Assembly: GCF_000003815.2 (NCBI RefSeq)
Contig: NC_049990.1
Span: 16,029,548-16,093,547, forward strand
Direction: 5' to 3'
Length of the DNA stretch: 64,000 bases
From: Branchiostoma floridae
Lineage: Eukaryota; Chordata; Leptocardii; Amphioxiformes; Branchiostomatidae
The position numbers and the translations under genes are program-made. How positions within the stretch are numbered: the stretch's first letter is position 1; each line of letters starts with the position of its first letter. Positions 8,114-61,016 of this stretch are shown here, in pieces. The notes under the pieces are model-generated. The model was not told where the DNA came from and did no database searches. It was given only the letters and a program-made list of their open reading frames with translations.

Positions 8114-8213
8114 NNNNNNNNNNNNNNNNNNNNNNNNNNNNNNNNNNNNNNNNNNNNNNNNNNNNNNNNNNNNNNNNNNNNNNNNNNNNNNNNNNNNNNN
8201 NNNNNNNNNNNNN
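8114..8213. other. assembly gap (100 N)
   Basis: Exactly 100 N bases, the usual placeholder for a scaffold gap of unknown size. Confidence 0.97.
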
Positions 8214-10466: not shown

Positions 10467-13400
10467 TTATAGATTTTCATTCAGAAATGACACCAGACTT
10501 TTCATCATCTCCTTCCCAACTTGAAACTCTAGCGGTTTTCTTATAAGATTTAGGACACCGTGGAAACCTTTCTGAAAGTGTTCCAGTCTGACCCTAACCC
10601 CAACCTGCTCCAGACGTTCGGCAAACATGATACCGTCATCTCTGAGCACGTCAAACTCACAAACCAGAATACAGGTGTTTGGAAACCCTGTCAGCTGGCT
10701 ATCCTCTGCCATGAGAGGGCTGAAATAGGGGTTTACGATATCCTTGATTTCTTCTGGCAGGTCGATAATGACGTCATCCGTTAGGGCCATTTTGGGAAGG
10801 GAGGGATCGATAAGGTGTCGGTCTACATAGCCGGCGAATCGAGACGTTTTTAAACAGTCGCTTATGTGAGTGTTACTCACAAATCTCTTGGCCCAAGAGA
10901 TGTTACCAGTCAGATACAAGCTACAGCTTGACGCATGGGATAGCGTATCCAACCACGGTGTCTCCCTCGTTCTGTGCGAAGTTGTCTGAAAATCTAAGGC
11001 CTGTAGAGCAGGGTAGACCAGGGCTTGTAGCTTGAGGGGACAGGCGTTGTTGCTGGTTTCTAGTGCCAGTTTTAAAGCCACTGCCGCTGCTAGGTTTCCC
11101 CCTGTACTATCTCCTGCTACACCCACACGGGTAGGGTCTACACCGTACTCTCGGGCGTGGTGTAGGAAGTATTTTGTAGCGTGGAGGCAATCTTCCAATG
11201 GTACGGGAAACTTGTACTCAGGCGCCAGCCTATAACTGAAAGATATAAAAGATAAAGAAAAAAGTTTGATTATCATCGTGATAGTCCAAAGTGGAAGTAT
11301 ACATCGAGGCAGGTGTTACTGGTACATTCAGTGCACAAAGCACAATTTATTCTCTAGGCCAAGTTTACTTAAAGGGTAAAAAGGTAAATGTAGTCCCATA
11401 GCCATTGTGAGGCTGTAGGGACAGTGTGTTGTTATCCATGGTGTCTAAGGCACAGTATTGGAAGGCGGAGCCCATCCCTCTTCTCCCATCGCCTTTTACC
11501 TCCACAACAGAAGTCAGGTACCCATTTTACACCTGGGTGGAGTGAGGAAAGTTTTATGAAATTCCTTTCACATTAATATGACCTTGTGTATGTAACGCTA
11601 GTTCACCTTTATCCGCGGGGTAACCTATATCTGTTTTTTCAAACACGGTGGTTTCAAACTGAGTTTGAGTGCCTGTGGCTTAGGATACGCCCAGATCGTC
11701 TGCCGAGAGGGGTTAACAGCATCATCACCGGCGTGCTGTACAATCCTCCACCAGGTACGATAAGGTGCAAACCTGACACAGAAGTCATCTCGTACTTGTG
11801 TAAGTCTATCCAGTCTGCAGAGATGAAATACCCCCTGTCTGGAGTGATTCTGATGGGGGACACGAACCAGTTGAAGCACCAGCCCCTGTGCACAAGGTGT
11901 CGACTGAAGCAGGTGGTAAAATCTCCAACACGAGGTCAGAATCAGCTGGATTCTATATTCACTAATCTGACCAAGTTCTACAACGAACAACCGCAGCATC
12001 ACCCACCGCTTGGCCAGTCTGACCATCAGCTCCTAACTCCCCCGGGTAGACCCTGGCCAAAGGATCCAGTGTTTGTTCACCGCCGTAGGAAGTGTACTCC
12101 TGAGGCGATGCGAGCGCTCGGGCTAGCACTTAACCTTGTAGACTTTACGCCAGTGGAGGAAACCGCAAACGTTGACCAGAAAGTAGAGCGCTTTTACTCC
12201 ATCGTGTGTCCACTCCTTGACAAGACAGTGCCACTGAAGAAGGGAAAAGTCACGTCCCAAGACAAGCCGTGGATAACCCCACACATAAAGCGCTTGATAG
12301 CTGAGAGACAGAAAACCTACATGTCGGGTAACACTGGTGCTTACCAAAAGCTAAGAAACAAGGTTCAACGCTGTCTGAAGTTTGCCAAAAAGTTGTACTA
12401 CCAGAGAGAAGTGGAAGAACTCAAGCACACAGACTCAAACAAATGGTTCAGCATGGTCAAGTCCCTGATAGGAGTGTCGGCGCCGAGAGGGAGAATTCCT
12501 CAAAGCTCAGCTACCGAAGAGAAAGACATGTGCGAGTCCCTGAGCGAACACTTCTCCTCAGTCTGGGCCAACGTACAGCGTTCCATTCCTGATGTTGCGG
12601 ACGTAGCCAGCCAGCTCTCGGACGGGCTTTTACCTGAACTGAGCATAGGCCAGGTGAAGCTTCAGCTGAAACGGGTCAATCCACGTAAGGCAACCGGGGG
12701 GGATCAATTACCACCCTGGCTTCTGACAACCTTCCACGAGGAGCTCGCTCCGATCCTGACGGACATTTACAACAGTTGTCTTCAGAAGGGAACCTTTCCA
12801 AGCAAGTGGAAAGAGGAACTTGTCGTGCCTGTACCAAAAACACCTAAACCGAAAGGTCCCGAAGAGTATCGTCGGATCTCCTTGACTAGTTGTCTTGGCA
12901 AAGTGCTGGAGGTCTTTGTCCGTGAGCTACTATTGCGAGACACCGATGACTAAATTCTCAATTCACAGCACGGTTTCAGGCGTGGTAGGTCTACCGTCTC
13001 AGCCCTCATACAGACAACACAAGCATGGCATGACGCTGTAAATAGCAATCCTAAAATGGACGTCCATGTTGCATTCATAGACTTTTCCCGAGCGTTCGAC
13101 AACATTGACCATGGGAAGCTCCTGTGTAGCCTGGCAAGGTTGGGCGTAAGACGAAACCTCTGGGCATGCATCTCTAGCTACCTGAGTGGTCGCAACCAGC
13201 GCGTGAAATGGGGAGGGTGTGTCTCGGATTCGCGACCCGTTCTAGCTGGCACACCCCAGGGAGGAATATTGTCGCCGACGTTATTTGTCATAGCCATGAA
13301 CTGTCTGGACGAAAACATCCACCCCAGTGTTACCCCAGTGAAGTATGCGGATGACCTGACTAACTCTGAGTGTCTAATGGGATCACTTCCTGGTATCCTA

Positions 13401-15299
13401 CAAACCTCTATGACTGCTGTAGAGTCATGGGCTGCTTCATACAGCATGGAGGCAAACGCAAAGAAAACAAAAGACATGGTGATAAGCTGTCGCAGAGTTC
13501 CAGTTAATCCCCCACCGCTTATGCTGGGTGGCCAGCCAGTGGAAAGAGTCACGAAATTCAAACTTCTGGGAGTTATTGTTACACATGATCTCACATGGAA
13601 CGAACAAGTTAAAAGTATGGTATCCAAAGCACAACCACGGATACACTACCTACGCCTTGCTAAAAGGGCCGGACTACCCTCTGACTTACTACTAACTATC
13701 TATACCTCATTCATCCGGCCAATTGTGGAGTATGGATCACCTGTGTGGGGAGGGCTTCCAAAGACCCTGTCGGATGAACTGGAAAAAATTCAAAAACTCT
13801 GCTGCAAAATCATTGGCGTGGACCATCATCTACTCCCTACACTACAGTCCAGGCGACACAAGGCCTCTATGCGCGAGCTGCAGCGGATCCTTAAGGACAC
13901 TACACATCCCTGCAGACAGTTTCTGCCCCCTGTTGTAAAAACTCAATACAACCTACGTCGCAATGTGGAAATGAAAACGCCACATAGTAAAACAAGTCGA
14001 CACAAGATGTCGTTTGTACCGCGGACACTAGCCCAAAAAGCTTTATCTAAATGTTGATGTAAATATGTTTTAAGATTTTATATTGATATCTCGCTTCTTT
14101 CTCAAATTGTCAATATGTATAACGCTGGTGACTGAAGTGCTATTTTGTGTTATGATATGTTGTGTAAAATCAATGCAATTCAGCCCCTATGGGGGCTGCA
14201 AAGTTGATTGTAATAAAGTTTCAAGTTTCAACTGCAATAGTATTCAAGGATATTGCAGACGTTGCAATATTTTGAAAATAATTGCAATACTTTGAAAATA
14301 TTGCACTTCGAAACCACCGTCCGTTGACTTGATATCCCTGAATATCTTGTTTTAGAAACAACGGACATAGGGTACCCCACGGATAAAGGTGAACTAACGT
14401 TACAGGAACGTTAACGTCTGTCGGAGAAGAAGAAATGGTAGACACTCACTCAACCGAAAATACTACTGCTCCAGTCTCCTTTGCTATGTGCCAGGTCACA
14501 TGATCGTAAACATCTGAAAGACGAAATGATTGGTCATGAGCTCGAGAACATGAACACATTTAGATATCACACAACAAACAATAGTTAAGTGGAATTTGTT
14601 ATCACAAGTACAGTATCTTCTCTGGATAGTTTCAAAGAACGCTTGCAGATAGATGTGACGGGTCGTTCGTAGTCTCTACCAGACTCCGGATCGCTGGAAA
14701 ATCGTAGAAATGGAACAAATAGAGAGGAATATAACCGGCCAGGGAACAGCTCGCTATCCGTAGATCGCGTGCTGTTCCCTGGCCAGTTATATTCCTCTGG
14801 ACGGCTTACTCCTCTATTTGTTCCATTTCTACGATTTTCCAGCGATCCGGAGTCTGGTAGAGACTAGGTCGTTCGGTGTAGTATAACCAGCTGCTGCCGC
14901 GCCGTGTGCCTGCGAAGCTGGTGTGTTACGCGGAAGGGCGGTTATACCGGCTATATAGATACAGATACAGATACAGATACAGCAACCTGTTCGGAACCAG
15001 TTGGCGAACGTCGTTAAAAAAAGTCGCTAAGCGGTCGACGCAGTGAGATACGCAAGTTACTTAAGATCACTCACCAGGAGACAACATAACCCATCCTCCG
15101 CCATGTATAAAGACCAGGCCTGCCCTGTCCATGTCTTGTTCTTGCCCCTGTGGTTGGTAGACTAGCACCCGGACACCGTCAAAGGTCGGTCTGTCACCCG
15201 CATGGACGGGTCATCTTCAACACGAGGCCGGCGTTTCTTCCCGTTCTTTCTGCGGTACTCTAGGCTTGACCCGAACCCCAACAACTCGTACATCGCCCC
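10467..15299 (-). CDS. arylacetamide deacetylase-like alpha/beta-hydrolase (HSL/AADAC family), 5' incomplete, probable frameshift
   Basis: Exons on the minus strand: 15075-15299, 14450-14513 and 10467-11235 (stop TAA 10467-10469); introns are GT-AG and the last two joins keep frame. Family motifs appear in order: RVTDRP then FDGVRVLVYQP, the oxyanion motif HGGGW, DYRLAPEYKFPVPLEDC, the nucleophile elbow GDSTGGN, CEFDVLRDDG (acid) and GFHG (base). These enzymes hydrolyse ester or amide bonds of lipids and xenobiotics, usually at the ER membrane with an N-terminal membrane anchor. Two oddities: the first exon present lacks one base between VTDRP and FDGV, so the frame breaks before HGGGW; and no anchor-coding exon is found upstream, where a Death-domain gene begins by 17.6 kb. 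It is a decaying gene, an allele with a sequencing error, or a gene whose first exon I cannot see. The elbow has Thr where AADAC usually has Ala. Confidence 0.8.
11390..11560 (-). mobile_element. SINE fragment (family 2), tRNA head missing
   Basis: Sequence 'tagtcccatag...gttgttatcc...gagcccatccctct...cagg/tacccattt..acctgggtggagtgagg' recurs at 28024-28290, 40155-40780 and 57140-57445. The last copy has a tRNA-like promoter at its head, which identifies this one as a 5'-truncated minus-strand copy. Confidence 0.65.
11663..14057 (+). pseudogene. LINE endonuclease-reverse transcriptase, truncated, one in-frame stop
   Basis: About 800 codons in one frame. The endonuclease remnant shows ITGVLYNPPPG, ILMGDTNQL and the SDHQLL catalytic end. 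The reverse transcriptase shows HGFRRGRSTVSAL, VAFIDFSRAFDNIDH, AGTPQGGILSPTLF and the active site YADDL, followed by the thumb region with YGSPVWGG. A single TAA at 12951-12953 interrupts the frame between the fingers and palm; the same frame resumes immediately as ILNSQHGFRRG. Its 5' end lacks at least the first half of the endonuclease and any ORF1. With so little decay the insertion is fairly young. Confidence 0.9.
11663..14233 (+). mobile_element. 5'-truncated CR1/L2/Jockey-like non-LTR retrotransposon
   Basis: It encodes the end of an AP endonuclease and a whole reverse transcriptase. The tail follows the coding region directly, with the hairpin CAGCCCCTATGGGGGCTG (near 14182), AATAAAG and a short TTTCAAG repeat, the usual 3' end of CR1/L2-like LINEs. 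The start is truncated within the endonuclease, and insertion was into a MITE in the esterase intron, antisense to that gene. Confidence 0.9.
14670..14866. mobile_element. foldback MITE with 9-bp target duplication
   Basis: Near-perfect inverted arms begin TAGTCTCTACCAGACTCCGG and end CCGGAGTCTGGTAGAGACTA. The direct repeat GGTCGTTCG flanks it at 14661-14669 and 14867-14875. Arms of about 90 bp leave only a short loop. It lies between the second and third visible esterase exons counted from the 3' end. Confidence 0.85.
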
Positions 15300-23370: not shown

Positions 23371-26300
23371 TCATCTCTTGGTGGGGGTGGGTAGGATATA
23401 AACTTTGACAGGTTTACAGAGAGGGATCACATTGGATGCTGCTCCCCCCTCCTCCTCGTCCTCTTGGTCTCCCCCAGAGTAGGGCAGTACCATTCCCAGC
23501 TCCACATGGCATGGCTCTGTGGGGTGGGGAGTTACACAGTTATTCCAAGCATACATTGATGTTTTGGTGGGACTAAATCACAAAGGTTTGTAATGACAGT
23601 ACCTTGAGTGATCTCAATACGATTGTAATTATAGTAAGACCATTATATTGATTTGACTATATGGATGACATACTCTGGGAATCCCAAAACTGATGCGTTT
23701 TAATAAATAAATAAATAAAAAAAGTTTGCCAAAAAAAGTTTCCTTCAGTGTGAAATCTAAGTGTTCAGGATGGCTCAGCAAATGACAGAACACATGAATA
23801 TGGTTATACTGAACAATAGACTGTCCATTTTTGTTCTTTCATGTCTTCTTTCTTGACCTGTTGCTCATTTTACCACTGCTTTGTACAGTATACTTAGTAG
23901 TCAAAACCAAAAACTTTTATTTTTGCAAATAGACAAAAATTGATGCACGCATGGATATCATCCATAATAATCAAATCAACATGGCCTAACTGCCCCAATT
24001 GAGGCGAGGAAAGTCCAATAATGAGCCTTTCCCAAGGGCACAAGATTGGTGACATGGCAGGATTCAAACCCATGACATTATCATCAGAGATAAAATAGAG
24101 ATGTATTTCTCACCTGTCCATTGTTGGTGAGACAGGTAAACTTGTGTCAGCACGCGGTGACGGAGGGGACCCAGTCTGTGGATGTCGGCAGGTCTCACAC
24201 TGGTGAGCTGGGTCTGGCCATCTGGGAACTTCAGCTGGGAGAAACACCAAGGGGAGACCATGGTTGTAGTCGTGTATAGTTTGTGGTTGGATTAACATCA
24301 AACGAAATGGGATCGTGCATATGCAGAGCATTATTTCTGTGGGCAAAGACATTCATAAGTTTGCAACATGATACCGGTAATGCTACAGCCCCATTTCGTA
24401 AAAGGGGTCCCTTTGGATATGGTCTGTTTTTCTGCACTTTCGGGCATGACCACTACCTGTGGCTATTTTGGGGCATGGCAGGGCCCTGGGATTTCTTTAG
24501 TATGCAGTTAAAATCAACCCAGGACCCGGTAGCAAATAGATGCAGTGACCTAATTGTAAAAACAGCAAGAGGAACCCCTTCGTTCACTATTACAAATTTG
24601 TGGGTTTACGTTTTAGTACAAAGCCCGAGTTGGTGAATTGCCTTCAGCAGAACAAAATTTAATATTTTTCACTCCTATCAAATCCACCCCCCTCTTATTT
24701 CTTGCTCTATACCTTACTTGTATGAGCACATCTTGTGCCTGAGTCACATTATCCAGTGTGGCGTCCACATCTATCGCCAGTGCCAGCCCGGCGGTGAACC
24801 GCTGGACGTTATCGGACTCTCCGGACGGCTCTACGATGTCTGCTCGCGCCTGCCGCACACAGTTCCCTATCTCCATAGCTGGGGGGATATGACCTGTCAT
24901 CACACATAAACAACAATAGGTTCTTTGATCCCTCAAATTGCGATGCTTTGGTCTCAAAGGAATAAAGTGATATATTTGTCATCATTATTGATAACGCCAT
25001 AATAAGTTTTACCTTTTTGTTAAGCATCTACTACTATGTTTTCTGTTAATTACATGTAATACAGGTTTAATGGCCTGCATAAGGTGTTTGACATAATAAA
25101 CAACTAAGGAATACACCAGCTAATTTGCTTCGCTCACTCAATGGTTTATTCAGTGAGGTTATAGGTCACAGGCCATGCATTATCTCACTCTAAACACCTA
25201 TTTAACCTTGAATCAATTTGTCCTTTGTCATTAATATTAGCCTAAGGGTGAGTGCTTAGCTAGGGTGACATAATGAATAAGCTACCGAATACACCAGTCT
25301 TCATTTGCTTTGCTCACTCAGTGGTTTCTTCAGTTGTAACTGGTCACTGGCCAGGTGTTTTCACAACTCATGAAGAGTTGCACAATTTGTCCCTTGTAAG
25401 TAACCGTAGGGCATAATTCACATTGAAGAATATCATTATGACATACTATTATGATAATGATATATATTGATTATCATATCATAATAGATTTTTCTGACAA
25501 CTTTGCACTACTCTAAACTTACCCTGAATGAGTGGATAGATTTTTCTGACAACTTTGTGCTGCTCTAAACTTACCCTGAATGAGTGGATAGATTTTTCTG
25601 ACAACTTTGTGCTGCTCTAAACTTACCCTGAATGAGTGGATAGATTTTTCTGACAACTTTGCACTACTCTAAACTTACCCTGAATGAGTGGATAGATTTT
25701 TCTGACAACTTTGTGCTGCTCTAAACTTACCCTGAATGAGTGGATAGATTTTTCTGACAACTTTGCACTACTCTAAACTTACCCTGAATGAGTGGATAGA
25801 TTTTTCTGACAACTTTGCACTACTCTACACTTACCCTGAATGAGTGGATAGATTTTTCTGACAACTTTGCACTACTCTAAACTTACCCTGAATGAGTGGA
25901 TAGATTTTTCTGACAACTTTGTGCTGCTCTAAACTTACCCTGAATGAGTGGATAGATTTTTCTGACAACTTTGTGCTGCTCTAAACTTACCCTGAATGAG
26001 TGGATAGATTTTTCTGACAACTTTGTGCTGCTCTAAACTTACCCTGAATGAGTGGATAGATTTTTCTGACAACTTTGTGCTGCTCTACACTTACCCTGAA
26101 TGAGTGGATAGATTTTTCTGACAACTTTGTGCTGCTCTAAACTTACCCTGAATGAGTGGATAGATTTTTCTGACAACTTTGCACTACTCTAAACTTACCC
26201 TGAATGAGTGGATAGATTTTTCTGACAACTTTGCACTACTCTAAACTTACCCTGAATGAGTGGATAGATTTTTCTGACAACTTTGTGCTGCTCTAAACTT

Positions 26301-29300
26301 ACCCTGAATGAGTGGATAGATTTTTCTGACAACTTTGTGCTGCTCTAAACTTACCCTGAATGAGTGGATAGATTTTTCTGACAACTTTGTGCTGCTCTAC
26401 ACTTACCCTGAATGAGTGGATAGATTTTTCTGACAACTTTGTGCTGCTCTAAACTTACCCTGAATGAGTGGATAGATTTTTCTGACAACTTTGTGCTGCT
26501 CTACACTTACCCTGAATGAGTGGATAGATTTTTCTGACAACTTTGTGCTGCTCTACACTTACCCTGAATGAGTGGATAGATTTTTCTGACAACTTTGTGC
26601 TGCTCTACACTTACCCTGAATGAGTGGTAGGAGGTACTTTGCAATGAGGGAGGCTTTACTGGACTCTAACATGGACATCTCAGCCATCAGGGCCTGTGTG
26701 AAGGGGTCTGCTTGCACCTTCTTACTGTTCAGATAACTAGGAAAGAAACATACAACATAACAGTAGAGTTTTGTCAGTAGAATGTATGCATGAGTATATA
26801 ATTTTGTAACAAAATCTTCATACTTACTAATATTCTTTGATAAAATCAAATTCTAAAAAGCATCCTCCAGTTGACGTAAATTTTGTGTGATTCACAGATC
26901 TCTGAATCTAAATACAAATATCTGTATTCACATTCAAAAAACTTTATTAGTTTCACAATGACAAGAATACAAATGCCTCTCATCTTATGTTTTTGTACTT
27001 CCCTTAACTAACAATATAATGTATATCAGATACAGTCAATGATTATTTGCTTAAAGATTTACAACAAAAAAGCATTATATAACCCACCTCTGTACTTCAG
27101 TCACTCTCTGCAGATACAACTCACACAGCTGTGAGGAGGTCTTAGTCCTACAAAATTCAACAGAACCAAACAAGTACTTCAAGATACATTTTCTTTAGCA
27201 ACTTGTCAACTGCCTTCTATGGGGGAGTTGGGACTTAGGTGAATATAATTTTCAAACGATGGGCAAAAGTAAGTAATATTCGCAAAGTAAGCAGTTGAAC
27301 ATAATTTTGCATATATCAAAGATGTTTATATCCTTCCTTAAATTTGCAAAAAATGCCAGTGTTCCCCACTGGCACTAACTCAGTCTGCAGACTTGTGAAT
27401 TACCTACTGCAACTTACAAAATTGCTCAAAATAGAAGAAATGAACACAAAAACAATGTGAACAGTTTGCACCCCTCCTATAAACACATCACTGTACCACA
27501 TCACTGTACCACATCTGTGCAATAAACTCAAATAAAGTATGCATCTCGACTTGGGCAACAACTTGCTGATTCACAAGCTGTTAAATTTTGAAAAGTTAGA
27601 AAACTGTAAACAAAACAAAAAACTGAAAAATTTACAGAATTCCCATTGGTGAGAACATAGCCTACCCTTTAGCTCCTGCTTGTCTCCCCCGTAAGTCCAC
27701 CAGCAGCTGTAGTGTGTGAGCCTTCAGTCTCATCTGCAGGACACACCCCACCTCTTCTGAACTCAGACCCAGGAACAACTGCTCCATCTGATGGGTCAAC
27801 TCCAACATCTGCAGAGGGAGTAGGGTAAATGGATGTAACAGCCATACAGAATTTCTGTAAATACCTTTAATTGTGGTGACTTAATTTGCCAGTAGTCAGA
27901 AAATGATGTGTCTGTGGTGATTCTAAGTTAGCCGTAGTGGTATTATTATGTACTGTACTGTAATGGAAAGACTGGTTTTAAGTTCTTCAATCAAACTGGA
28001 AATGGTTTTAAAAATTGCTTTTTTTTAGGCCGTAGGGTCAGTGGGTTGTTATCCTCTGTGTCTACAGCACGGTATTGGGAGGCAGAGCCCATCCCTCTCC
28101 TTCCACCACCTTTAATATCCCTAAACAAAGTCTGATGTACCAACCATTTTCACACCTGGATGGAAATTGAGGAAAGGCATAAAAAGTGCATTTCCCAAGG
28201 GCACAACATCAGTGGCATGTCAAGGGGACTCCAACCCAGGATCTTTGGGTTCAGGGCCAAACACCCTAACCATTATCCTAACTCGTTGCCACAATACAGA
28301 CTGCTTGTGTCAGATACAAGAAAAGTTGGTAATGCTGCGAGTATGATCTACATGTAGTACCTGTCTGACTGATGCCCTGACTGTCGCACACTGTACTGCA
28401 CCTAGTGCTGCAGGCATGGCCCACAGCTGGTCTGACAGTGCCTATAGGAAACACAAAAATTTACTGTAACTTCACACGTAACACAGAACTGGTCAGACAG
28501 TGCCTATAGGAAACACAAAAACATTACTGTAACTTCACACGTAACAAGCTATCTTACATTGTATAACATGGTAGACTATGGAAAAGCACATGATGAAAGT
28601 AAAATATTTATTCCACTGAAAAGAAACATTAATTTTGCAGGATAACAAATATGGAGGAATAGAATCTTTCTTATATGGCCAACATTTATCTACGAATGTG
28701 ACAAGGTACATTACTCAGACTCTCATGCAGCACCGCTGATATTGGAGAGTCTGATATTGGCCAACATTATCGACCGACATTTGGTCATACCCACCTGAGA
28801 AAACCCATGTTTTGATGCATAATACGCCAGAAGTTGAACAAATTTGGTGCCCTCGAACCAAAAGTGTTCCAACAGTAATGTTCCAACGTCCAAATCAGGT
28901 AATCTAATTTTTGACGGCGCCACACTCATCCCGCTCGAAATAGTTTGATTTATTCGAATGGAGCCTGTGTGATACAACTTAGAGCCCGTCTGATACGGAA
29001 GTTATCACCCGGTCCGGAACACCCGTATCGAACGTTTTTGCGTCACAGGTATGACATAAATACTAGTACTCCATGTAGCATGTACCCACCTTGCGGAACA
29101 GCATGTGACAGTGTAGGTACATGGCAGTGCAGGCAGCCGTAGCAGCGAGTTGGGGCTCTAAACTCCCCACTCTTTCCAAGTCTCTTTTAACACAAACACA
29201 ATCATGGTCATCACATATACCAAAAAAGGACCAACAATGTTATCCAAAATTACTACCACAATCTTATTGAGGAACAATGTCTTTTTACAAAAATGTACAA

Positions 29301-35300: not shown

Positions 35301-38300
35301 TGTCAAAGAAACCACAAGAGTTTTCCAAGCTCAACAGTGACTTACCCTAAGATGAGACATGAGCTTTTTGTCCAGAGTCTGTTCCAGGAACCGAGCACTG
35401 ACTCTGTGTAGTGAACCCTGAAAAGTATTAAAACATGACACTGTATTTTTCTTAATGTATAATCAGGATTTAAATAGAGATTGACCACCCAAACACCATT
35501 GAAAAGATTTTTTGTCAAGCAAAACTAGTGGTGTCAAAAAGAAGAAACCCTTGCATATAATGTGCCATGCGCCAATTATAAAGAAAATCCTAGGCTAATT
35601 GTAGTTTTTTTTTCTTCAAATAATCAATGACGTGGGTAATTGCAATTTTGCTTACACAGTATCTCTGAGGTCAATCAAGGTCATATTCAACACATATAAA
35701 TATGCACAGTATTTACAACAGGTACACACCACTTCCTATGCTTTCCAGCTATGTTGGCATTTAATGTAATTTCACAGCAGACAATAAGAAATGTCAACTG
35801 AAACCTAAACCCTTGGAAAGTTTCTGTCACTTTTTTTTGCAGTGAGCTACCAAAGACCCCGGTCTCAGAAGAACTGGGGTCTGTACCAATTACTGAAAAC
35901 ACAACACAAAGAAAGAAAGAAACAAACAAAGACAACAGCAGTACATGTACCTCCATTTTCATGGAGGTAACAAATGGAAGAATGTTTAAAGTTTACCAGT
36001 AGTCCAGCGGCCTCTGCTCTCACTGTCATAGTCAGGTCATTCACCATGTTACAGATCTTTGCAAACCCATCATCCACAAGACGCAGCTCCTCATTGGAGG
36101 AGGGGACAGGGATCATTCTGCAAACAGTAAACAGAGCTGTCATTGGTCATTTTCTCTACAGTAATCATACAACAGCACTAGACGTATGTCAGCCTAGAAA
36201 CAGTATTATTTGGCTGTTCTTTCACACCAATACCATCTTCCATCAAGACCATAATCTATGAGACGCGGCTCCTTATTGGAGGAGGGGACAGGAATCATTC
36301 TGCAAACAGTAAACAGCTCTGTCATTGGTCAGTATCTCTAAAGTAATCATACAACAGCACTAGACGTATGTCAGCCAAGAAACAGTAAGTATTTGGCAGT
36401 TCTTTCACACCAATACCATCTTCCATCAAGACCATAATCTATGAGACGCGGCTCCTTATTGGAGGAGAGGACAGGGATCATTCTGCAAACAGTAAACAGC
36501 TCTGTCATTGGTTAGTATCTCTAAAGTAATCATACAACAACATTGCAAGTATGTCTGCCATGAAAACATGCATTGACTGTCGTTGGTAGCAGCATCACAG
36601 TTGAGTTCCTGGTTCCAGTTAGGGAGACCCCGGTTCAAATCCAGGGAAGTGGATCTCGGTTGGGGCTGCACCCGTTTTTTGGAAGGGACGTAAATGGTTG
36701 TGCCATGTTCAAAGAGGTGCCTCAAGCACGTAAAAGAGTTGTAATGGCTAGCAACAATTCCCTGTAAAAATTTATCCTGCTACAGAAACCGCAAGTTAAC
36801 CTGCCTGTGCACTACAAGGGGACAACAAAAGTTAGATTGATAAGGCCACCTTGACTTAATTCTATGGATGACATCCTATGGAGACCCCAAAACTAATGCA
36901 GGAGGAAAAAAAAAAGAAAAATCAAGAAAGAAATGCTGCTAAACCACGGGCCTAAACATTTTTTCCCAGGCTTGGTTTGTCTTATGTTCACCTCCAGTAA
37001 GACTGTAAGAGAAAATCATTGCCATTTCAATAATGTTTTATTGCCATTCTTGTTTGAAGATAGAACAAGGGAGCTGTAGCCCCATGCCCTGACCATGTGC
37101 ACCCTTACCCTGGAGAGGAGATCCTCTGCGCTGGCAAGCACCAAATACCAGGGACGCTATTTATGTGACATGTGGCCACAGTTTTTTTGTGGCGAACAGA
37201 TGAAAATTAATGTCATCCGTAAAATTATAAGTTAGTGTGGCCTAAAGGATGAACGGAGATGTAAAACTACTAACGTTTCTGGATATAGCTGACTGTAGAC
37301 CCAGATGAGTTTGACTGCAGCCAGTCTGACCCCCTCGTAGTCATCAGTCAGAGCAGCACAGGACTGCTGGTACCCGCCTAGGCTCAGCTTCAGCCCTCGC
37401 TGGTGTAGGGTCAACTGGAAGGGTTTACAAGTAGGGCTGTGTACCTAAATACCCGTACCTGTACCGTACTTAAAAAACTGTTTAGGTACAGCGCAGGTCT
37501 GGACCTAAACATCTGTGTACCTGTACCTGTACCTAAATTTAGTAAATCACTAATAAACACTACTTTTTAAGACTGCTGGACAAGTAAATCCCGAATCAAC
37601 AATGACAACGGTGATAATCTTGCAGTTGAAACTTAAGAAAACTTGCAAAGAAATTGTTTTGAGATTCAAATATGTAATTGCCCATACAAAGATGACAATT
37701 TATCACTAGAAAACACAGTTAGCTACATGTTTAACTCACATATACTTGGTTAAACTTATTTTAGGTACAGGTGCAGGTCCGGACCTGTACCTAAACCAGT
37801 GTACCTGTACCTGAAAATTTGGTTAGGTACACAGCCCTATTTACAAGCAAATCTTAGTTTATTACCATCAATATCTACAAAGAATCGTAAAACAGATTGG
37901 AACAGACAAAGTCAAATTTTTCTTCCAGTATAATGTACTATGCTCATATCTATGATAGAAAGATTGATTTTGACCTAGTTTAGCTCATTGAAGAGCTACA
38001 TTTTTGTATTCTTCCAATGGCTGTGACAGTGGAGACAGATGCTATGTACAATATTTACAGCTTCACTGTATCGGTGAAATTCCGCAGGCTTGGCTCTATT
38101 TGACAAGCACAATGAATACTGGACCGTGGGTTAATATAACAGTTCTGTTATACCAGAAGAATTAAGGACATCCCAATCCTGTTGACTTAAGTTTATGTAC
38201 CAACATGGTCTGACTGACCACCATGGAATTAGACTGTTTTTTTTTAACAGTGTCAGAAAATCATGCGCTTTTCACAGTGATTAGGAATTCTGAGATCCTA

Positions 38301-41300
38301 TTGGATCAATTTTCAAAGTGATTAAGAATCCTGAGCTCCTATTGGATGGATTTTCAAAGTGATTATAAGAATCCTGACACCCCATTCGTGTACCAATGGC
38401 CCAGAACTGCACATTTGCCACCAAGAACCATAATGGTTTTTTAAAACCCTACCATCGCTTGCAGTGCGCTGGTTCTGACCCTGGGGTCCTGGTCATGTGA
38501 CGCATCCGCCAGGATCCTCTCTACTGCCAGGTCTCCCTTCCCAGCAACCCCTGCTGTACCCAGGCAGCCAATCAGCTCCAGGCATTTAGAGCGGACAAGA
38601 TGGTACGTGTCTGCTAAGAACTATGGGAAGGGGCAATGTAAAACAATATGAGTAAATCTTCTGGAAAAATTGTAAAACATACATTTTGTATTGAACAACT
38701 TGTAACTGGACATACATGTAGGTATGTGCAAATGATGGCATAGTTCACACAAGTTAAAGGGGCATTCCACTCCAGAAGGGAGTATTGTTTTCCAATAGAT
38801 AATGTGTCAATGAATACATAATCAGCCGAATTTTGTGGAATTCACTATGTGATGAATTACGTGATGTGTGTTTTATAAAACAATAATGACACTCACTAAA
38901 CCCATGCAGACCCTACCCATGCATTCCCTATATGCATAGACACTTTGTTTATCGTGAATATTTCCGGAATAAATGAGGTACGCTAAGCATACCGAGAGGG
39001 CAAATTGCTCATAATATAGCAAAGAATACAAGAACAAGACGAGATTTCTTAGCGATCCTGAAATTAGTTTTGTAACCTTACCTAAAAGTTTTGCATTGTA
39101 TTCAGCCATAGGATTAATTCAATTAGAGGGTACTTGGGGAGTTTAGTAGAACATTGAATGCTTTTGAGGTATGTGGAGCAACTGGGTACTTTATCGTATA
39201 ATGTGAAGTAGTATGCAGTTATCACTTCCTAAAATTTATATCTATCGGAAAAAAACACTCCCGTGTGGAGTGGAATGCCCCTTTAATAAATCTTGAACAT
39301 GCCCAGTACCATATTCTATTGCACTTTGAAATATGTTTCAACACTTGGGCAGTTTGCATGTTTCGCTGTGGTAAATTGTGAACATTATAGCATTTGGAAA
39401 CGTAAAAAACACGTACAGTACCTGTTGTGCTATGGCCACCAGTTTCCTGTGCAGGTCTTGGTGTAGGGGGAGACCACGCCCGATCTGTAGCAGGGAGTCT
39501 AGCAACTGGGCTCGCACCTGGTGGGAATCTACACACACAAAAAAAAAAGAACTCATGTAGTAGCTTCAGTGTCCTTCACAAAACCATCCTTTTCCTCACA
39601 CTTGGAATCGTCTATAATAAGGCTAGGTATCGGTACAGCGTACCGGTACAAAACCGTTTTTTCTTATTGGACCGGTCCAGAAAAACCGGACCTGAAAAAA
39701 TTAGGTTGACCGGATGTTGGACCGATTAGAAAATTAACAGATTATTTTATCAGGCATTCACACGTTTTGGCGCTTGCGGGTGGAAGAAAATAACAAGAGT
39801 GAAGTACAGTAGAGTTTATAGTAATTTCTACCAAGTTTTACAGCCAATCATACAGGTGCAGACAGCGTTGAAGGCTTTTAAAACGCCAGTGTAAGTCTAA
39901 TACTCCACCAAACAGATTTCTTTGTAGTGAAATGGACCATTGGTATGAGTCATACTGCATCAGGTCCAGGTTCAAGTCCAGACCTGGACCTGATCCTCTG
40001 GACCTGGACCTGAATTTTCTGTACCGGTACCCAGCCCTAGAGTTTGACAGTAATTATGAAGTGCATCTCTTTACAATTTTAGGCATTTGTGGAAATAGTA
40101 AATCTGATACAGTGTGGATGGCATAGATTTAGATAGAATATGACAAGGGCAAAGGTAGTCCCATAGTCTTCTTAGGGATGTAGGAACAGTGGGTTGTTAT
40201 CTACTGTGTCTAGGGCATGGTATTAGAAGGTAGAGCCCATCCCTCTCCTTCCGCCATCCTTTTACCTCCTGAACCAAAGTCAGGTACCAGGCTTTTAGCC
40301 AGGCATGCGTCAACGCGTCATCTGGACGCACTTTTCTTAGAATAACAAGAAATTTGACGCTCTGGACGCCCTTACACTGGGGAAAAAATCCTCTGACAGG
40401 CATGAAATTCTGATTGACCAGGGATGCTACCAGGTCATCTGTGGTCACAGCCTTCTACTGTGACATCTGTAACAGTATTTTTGCCTCTTAGGATACCTTT
40501 TAGAATGCACTATTTTAACTCAAAACATCAAAAACTCAGCACCATGGAAGGTGGATGCACCCGGACCCCCCTACAATAGTCACCAATAAATTTGGACTCC
40601 CTATAATAAAATCCTAGCTAAAAGCCTGTCAGGTACCCATATTTATAACTGGGTGGAGTGAGGAAGTATTTCTCAAATGCGTTTCCAAAGGACATAAGAT
40701 AAGTGGCATGGCAGGATTCGAACCCAGGACCTCTTTGCTCTGGGCCAAGTACAAGTACCCTTCAGTTACGCCATGTGAAGTTGTCTCACCTTCGGCCTGT
40801 AAGAGCGATGTGAGGTCGTCCACAAGAGCGGCTGCTGCAAACCCTGGCGTGTGGGCAAGTCTCCCCAACAGCTGGGCAATCTTGCTACGTACATACGACT
40901 CCTTCTCCTGTAAACAACAAACACAATTCATTGTTTACATTACAGTCAAAAACATCAACAACCTCTTGTTAAAGGGGAGATAAACTGAAAATTGAAAAGC
41001 CTGCTTTACTATTGTATGCTCCAAAGTCAATTTCTCATTTGTTTTTATGTAAAATCATCATAGTTTGAACAGGACTCTTTCATGGTGTGCCGTTTGCTTT
41101 GAAAGTTTGATACCGCACTGATGGCTTCTCGCCTGATCATTGAATTAGTTTATTGTTATGTCACAATAAAAATTAGGTAACATCAGGTTCCAATTCTCAA
41201 ACAGTTTGAATAGGCTTTTCGATCTGGCTTTTCTGAGGATGGATTTCAGCGAATTTTCCGCATTCAAAGTCCACTAACCTGTCTGGACCTGAACCTGGAC

Positions 41301-60916: not shown

Positions 60917-61016
60917 NNNNNNNNNNNNNNNNNNNNNNNNNNNNNNNNNNNNNNNNNNNNNNNNNNNNNNNNNNNNNNNNNNNNNNNNNNNNNNNNNNNN
61001 NNNNNNNNNNNNNNNN
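60917..61016. other. assembly gap (100 N)
   Basis: Exactly 100 N bases. It could hide an exon of the CARD gene. Confidence 0.97.

Follow-up and report, generated by a model that had tools for sequence, protein, structure and literature searches.

In a 64,000-nucleotide (nt) window of the Branchiostoma floridae genome, a 52-bp minisatellite of 22 units lies across the 5′ splice site of an exon of INTS4. We interpret this array as a "mirage", a repeat type known from earlier work on amphioxus, and put the probability of this reading at about 85%: a chance duplication over an exon border would have expanded and been homogenised, and would be largely silent under exon definition. The array is notable for its 22 copies with intact donors. 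Coordinates are positions within the window, the main features being collected in Table 1, and names of the form L041 denote other sampled stretches or loci of the same genome.

Tandem Repeats Finder (TRF) calls the array at 25484-26627 with a period of 52, 22.0 copies and 97% matches, and together with unit alignment this confirms the 22-fold repeat overlapping the INTS4 exon border that was described in an earlier note on this DNA. Each unit joins 13 nt of exon (CCACTCATTCAGG) to 39 nt of intron and spans the exon-intron border; unit 1 holds the true donor, and units 2-22 carry 21 decoy donors on the intron side. In transcript sense (minus strand), CACTCATTCAGG/GTAAGT (the slash marking the splice site) is present in all 22 units, as is an intact 18-mer donor motif, CACTCATTCAGGGTAAGT, for which an exact search of the 513,431,437-base assembly returned 22 matches, all in the INTS4 array; by the search tool's own warning, such counts can be lower bounds. 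The units fall into four types with 10, 6, 5 and 1 copies, interspersed along the array, and their mean pairwise identity is 96.6%. Only 4 of 52 sites vary, three of them fully linked. None of the 18 donor-motif sites is variable, versus 4 of 34 elsewhere in the unit, a distribution expected by chance with P = 0.17; because diversity is this low, the invariance of the 18-mer is uninformative, and selection on the donor motif is not supported by it. The earlier note had described the decoys as identical to the real donor, which is correct over the 18 nt and incorrect at position +7, where 16 of 21 decoys have T, whereas G is shared by the true donor and the other 5 decoys, the nearest two among them. 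The true donor and these 5 decoys therefore pair better with U1 (-11.9 kcal/mol) than do the other 16 (-10.0 kcal/mol), and of the 17 mapped INTS4 donors the true one matches U1 best.

The exon whose 3′ end founded the array matches the Pfam family INTS4_8HBD on its own (E = 1.4e-8), and the C-terminus obtained by splicing aligns with solved INTS4 chains (best E = 1.2e-39) and with Pfam 8HBD and INTS4_C; the best-matching PDB chains are presumably human. Exons were mapped by comparing stop-masked frames with the solved chains and Pfam, and borders were placed by phase and by a simple splice-site score with approximate weights. On the minus strand, eighteen exons read as INTS4, the first at 40907 and the last ending with a stop near 23372, and a putative N-terminal piece near 42436-42203 gives a weak match (E = 0.0024). 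For the founding exon, the acceptor at 26736 (tttctttcctag/TTATC) and the donor at 26615 (TCAGG/gtaagt) yield a frame that agrees with the neighbouring exons. Its earlier designation as INTS4 exon 19 holds for the gene, by Pfam and the solved chains; the number is unverified, and the map, if right, makes it at least the 17th (15 exons upstream, the first of them weak, plus at least one unmapped exon between 31010 and 29183). An extra exon hidden in the host intron is unlikely, since the alignment to INTS4 chains and Pfam is near-continuous. We take Chromo_2 matches in reading frames of the array to be repeat artefacts, no single stretch having passed, and Rfam and tRNA scans returned nothing at their thresholds.

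Translation past the true donor continues for 17 codons to GGG-TAA; use of donor 2 adds 52 nt, shifts the frame and leads to a stop in the next exon, and use of the third or any later donor meets the stop after 17 codons, inside the array; the earlier note had described all of this except the donor-2 stop. Every one of the 21 decoys places a stop before the last two INTS4 exons, so that routine decoy use would cost INTS4; only the exon-proximal donor of the 22 leaves the frame open. We rejected the idea that the units form an array of recursive splice sites (ratchet points): in TTCAG/GGTAAGT the donor begins one nt past the AG, and recursive splicing would therefore add one G per round and shift the frame. 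The TTCAG of each unit abuts GGTAAGT and is preceded by some pyrimidines, giving a near-ratchet site that misses the register by one nt; its acceptor, in the unit checked, scores 7.2 on our approximate scale.

Mirages are tandem duplications across exon-intron borders of amphioxus genes, reported for Adh3 and globins in B. floridae and B. lanceolatum (PMC3087553), and the INTS4 array shares two of their features: its unit spans the border and its copies carry duplicate splice signals. It resembles the Adh3 mirages (Canestro et al. 2002, via PMC3087553) as a border-spanning tandem repeat with decoy splice signals, and its 52-bp unit falls within the 10-72 bp given for Adh3 units (PMC3087553), but it differs from them in having 22 copies, all with an intact donor. 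BflGb9 copies the 3′ exon border, as the 52-bp array does, and the BflGb6 mirage, found as 6 and 3 repeat units in two haplotypes, lies on the acceptor side, like two additional INTS4 arrays considered below; the units of both globin mirages are 150-160 bp, in contrast to 52 bp here (PMC3087553). Lancelet PGBD5 likewise carries repeats of 60 and 108 bp over splice sites, although these are imperfect and the 108-bp repeat is a triplication (PMC3902484). In the available text of PMC3087553 and PMC3902484, INTS4 is not among the mirage genes named. Globin reverse transcription-polymerase chain reaction (RT-PCR) and Adh3 data suggest that mirages are spliced undisturbed, and the globin examples have been proposed as a route to intron gain (PMC3087553); splicing is also thought to be accurate in TnC and PGBD5, which carry mirages as well (PMC3902484).

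We propose that the array is probably ignored by the splicing machinery. The INTS4 exon would be recognised in the pre-mRNA by exon definition, as expected because the flanking introns are 929 and 1721 nt long; the donor nearest the exon's own acceptor would be used, and the decoys would be removed with the intron. According to the available text of PMC9225289, an exon-centric proximity rule holds under exon definition, with a transition at flanking introns of ~200-250 nt, and only the upstream donor was used in minigenes that had 365-nt introns and two identical CAG/guaagu donors spaced by 52 nt. These minigenes share with INTS4 identical strong guaagu donors, the same spacing and flanking introns of >250 nt, but they are artificial, have CAG/guaagu sites and only two donors, and were assayed by cell transfection outside the lancelet (PMC9225289). 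By this comparison the first, exon-proximal donor would be expected to win, and the suggestion in the earlier note of an accident tolerated through exon-proximal choice fits both the published mirages and the two-donor minigenes. Rare decoy use would yield substrates for nonsense-mediated decay (NMD), and a dedicated function of the array would be unnecessary.

Several considerations count against an interpretation based on exon definition. An intron-centric rule (Reed and Maniatis, described in PMC9225289), by which the downstream donor is preferred, predicts the opposite choice, namely the last decoy. Human events overall favour the downstream donor (~60%), and even when strengths are nearly equal, just 60% of human events favour the upstream donor (PMC9225289). 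Donor choice in INTS4 is inferred from other genes and a minigene study, and 22 strong donors are far beyond the two tested in those minigenes (PMC9225289). Five of the 21 decoys, among them the nearest two, match the true donor at +7, and in predicted RNA folds the unpaired probability is 0.002 at the true donor and 0.001-0.043 at the decoys. Structural masking of the decoys is thus not supported, and because folding gives no sign of hidden decoys, exon definition would be the main protection of the true donor.

The early stops bear on a different reading, also put forward in the earlier note, in which the array serves to generate NMD isoforms: some transcripts would use decoys, and array length would tune INTS4 output. 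All 21 stops fall well before the last junction, all 22 units retain an intact donor motif, and mirages show length and somatic instability (PMC3087553). However, regular splicing is reported for other amphioxus mirages (PMC3087553, PMC3902484), exon definition favours the exon-proximal donor (PMC9225289), the invariance of the donor motif does not exceed chance, and the low diversity among units suggests recent homogenisation instead of selection. We therefore consider NMD tuning unlikely and find no support for it. It is very unlikely that the array works as a hypervariable splicing dial, in which decoy number would vary among individuals and somatic cells, decoys would capture a measurable share of U1 binding and splicing, and INTS4 dose would follow array length through NMD.

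The density of U1 sites is itself striking, with 22 sense-strand sites of -9.9 kcal/mol or stronger in the array versus 0.42 expected per 1144 nt, an expectation taken from the window's sense strand outside the array (23 sites in 62,855 nt). The earlier note had raised a U1 sink and a link between INTS4 and small nuclear RNA (snRNA) supply. The 21 extra U1 sites would buffer U1, or would suppress intronic poly(A) signals by telescripting, in a feedback on INTS4, and two poly(A)-signal hexamers do lie downstream of the array, at 25150 and 25071. At least one such hexamer, however, also occurs in 10 of 15 other mapped INTS4 introns (two introns having two), and nascent RNAs of one gene cannot plausibly titrate a small nuclear ribonucleoprotein (snRNP) as abundant as U1. 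Moreover, the other two INTS4 mirages copy acceptors, with no strong donor-like site in their units, and repeat units sampled elsewhere are not enriched in donors. Our sample for the latter comprised 294,176 bases, made up of the window and 24 stretches of the same contig (4 nearby and 20 spaced over its first 6.2 Mb), in which 81 tandem arrays of period at least 20 cover 7.7% of the sequence. Their units (6,893 bases, both strands) contain 4 strong donor-like sites, one of them that of the INTS4 array, versus 4.16 expected from the rest of the sampled sequence. Because donors are not enriched and the sister mirages copy acceptors, we reject the U1 sink and the INTS4 feedback as extremely improbable, and neither proposal finds support in these counts. 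The only other array of period at least 20 in these 294 kb with at least 10 copies is an 84-bp repeat of 14.3 copies (L019:8527-9727).

The acceptor-side duplications show that the 52-bp array is one of three border-spanning repeats in INTS4, and in all three the authentic site is the exon-proximal copy, with the decoys on the intron side. A fourth INTS4 array of period at least 40, at 38269-38377, is purely intronic. As a control, we searched the B. floridae genome for globin exons and obtained 10 matching loci, one of which (L041) has an array across an exon acceptor (954-1601, 158 bp x 4.2, 91%) that overlaps the exon start; the true acceptor at 1506 is accompanied by a perfect 32/32-nt copy at 1348 and a weaker copy (26/32) at 1036. 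In unit length and in the side on which it lies, this array resembles the published BflGb6 mirage. Three other loci (L037, L038 and L039) have short arrays of period 20-25, and the remaining six have no array of period at least 20. A BflGb9-like 157-bp duplication was not seen in the ten loci (~3.2 kb each), which may not include BflGb9.

It could be argued from these examples that tandem duplication is favoured at exon borders, through some mechanism linked to splice signals or co-transcriptional structures. Three of the four INTS4 arrays of period at least 40 have a border-spanning unit, which random placement of the founding segment among 34 borders of 17 exons, after three short-period in-gene arrays (periods 4, 13 and 17) were dropped, gives with P = 0.008. 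This test is nevertheless post hoc, and P becomes 0.06 once the 52-bp array, which was given at the outset, is removed. A test on positions shows no excess: 3 of 36 tested INTS4 borders (one of the 36 positions being the coding-sequence end, not a border) lie in tandem tracts, the corresponding shares being 11% for intron positions and 2.3% for exon positions, and the observed value is reached in 12,941 of 17,534 circular shifts. The 81 sampled arrays, for which only donors were counted, likewise lack donor enrichment. The two border tests thus conflict, and a preference for borders appears improbable; in our reading, the INTS4 border arrays arose by chance duplication in a genome rich in repeats and persisted where the exon was left intact.

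For the 52-bp array, a chance tandem duplication over the INTS4 exon edge would have been tolerated because it left the exon intact, and the array would then have grown and been homogenised by unequal exchange or slippage. The identity of 96.6% and the interspersion of unit types point to recent expansion or homogenisation. AT-rich inverted repeats at 25430-25487 adjoin the intronic end of the array. The one that overlaps it (Table 1) has a DNA fold z of -2.2, with 6 of 200 shuffles folding at least as well, and could have stalled a replication fork at the founding event. Such a role is only suggestive, because the examined stretches around the other two INTS4 mirages yielded no palindrome; with one palindrome beside the 52-bp array and none around the others, a palindrome as the common cause of mirages was rejected. 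The copy number of 22 may be wrong or allelic, and the BflGb6 mirage was once misassembled (PMC3087553, supplement legend). That the copy number or the array itself is merely an assembly artefact is nonetheless highly unlikely, given that unit types are interspersed and that the array lies between a coding exon and unrelated intron sequence with a consistent frame.

As a mirage, the INTS4 array offers a natural experiment on donor choice, in which 22 donors identical over 18 nt are spaced at a fixed 52-nt step and only the first keeps the frame. It poses a much harder test than the published two-donor minigenes do, and it brings the intron-centric and exon-centric proximity rules into direct conflict. 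The three mirages in this one gene also add to the few genes named so far in the available text of PMC3087553 and PMC3902484.

Table 1. INTS4 exons, border-spanning repeats and adjoining elements in the window
Feature	Position	Strand	Remarks
52-bp x 22 minisatellite ("mirage")	25484..26627	-	TRF and unit alignment
INTS4 exon, 122 nt, 3′ end founded the array	26615..26736	-	Pfam PF24493; true donor after 26615, intron phase 1
Host intron, 1721 nt, about 2/3 array	24894..26614	-	
Next INTS4 exon (translation ...VLIQ)	24718..24893	-	Holds the stop for donor-2 use
AT-rich inverted repeat, 11-nt perfect arms	25446..25487	.	Overlaps last 4 nt of array, intronic end
Second border-spanning array in INTS4, 183 bp x 2.7	36079..36565	-	Across acceptor of exon 36117-35997; decoy acceptors 36299, 36482
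Third border-spanning duplication in INTS4, 62 bp x 1.9	28427..28546	-	Across acceptor of exon 28441-28361; decoy acceptor 28503

Elsewhere in the window, Pfam searches around three other arrays (62663, 6433 and 50964) gave no families, and runs of 100 N at 8114-8213 and 60917-61016 are probably assembly gaps. An alpha/beta hydrolase open reading frame (ORF) at 10467-11315 and a Death-domain match at ~17819-17574 are found on the minus strand. The ORF at 12954-14057 encodes a reverse transcriptase (RVT_1 with an ALKBH8_N-like segment) and looks like part of a long interspersed nuclear element (LINE); just upstream of it, at 11577-12953, is an ORF of 458 amino acids without a Pfam match.

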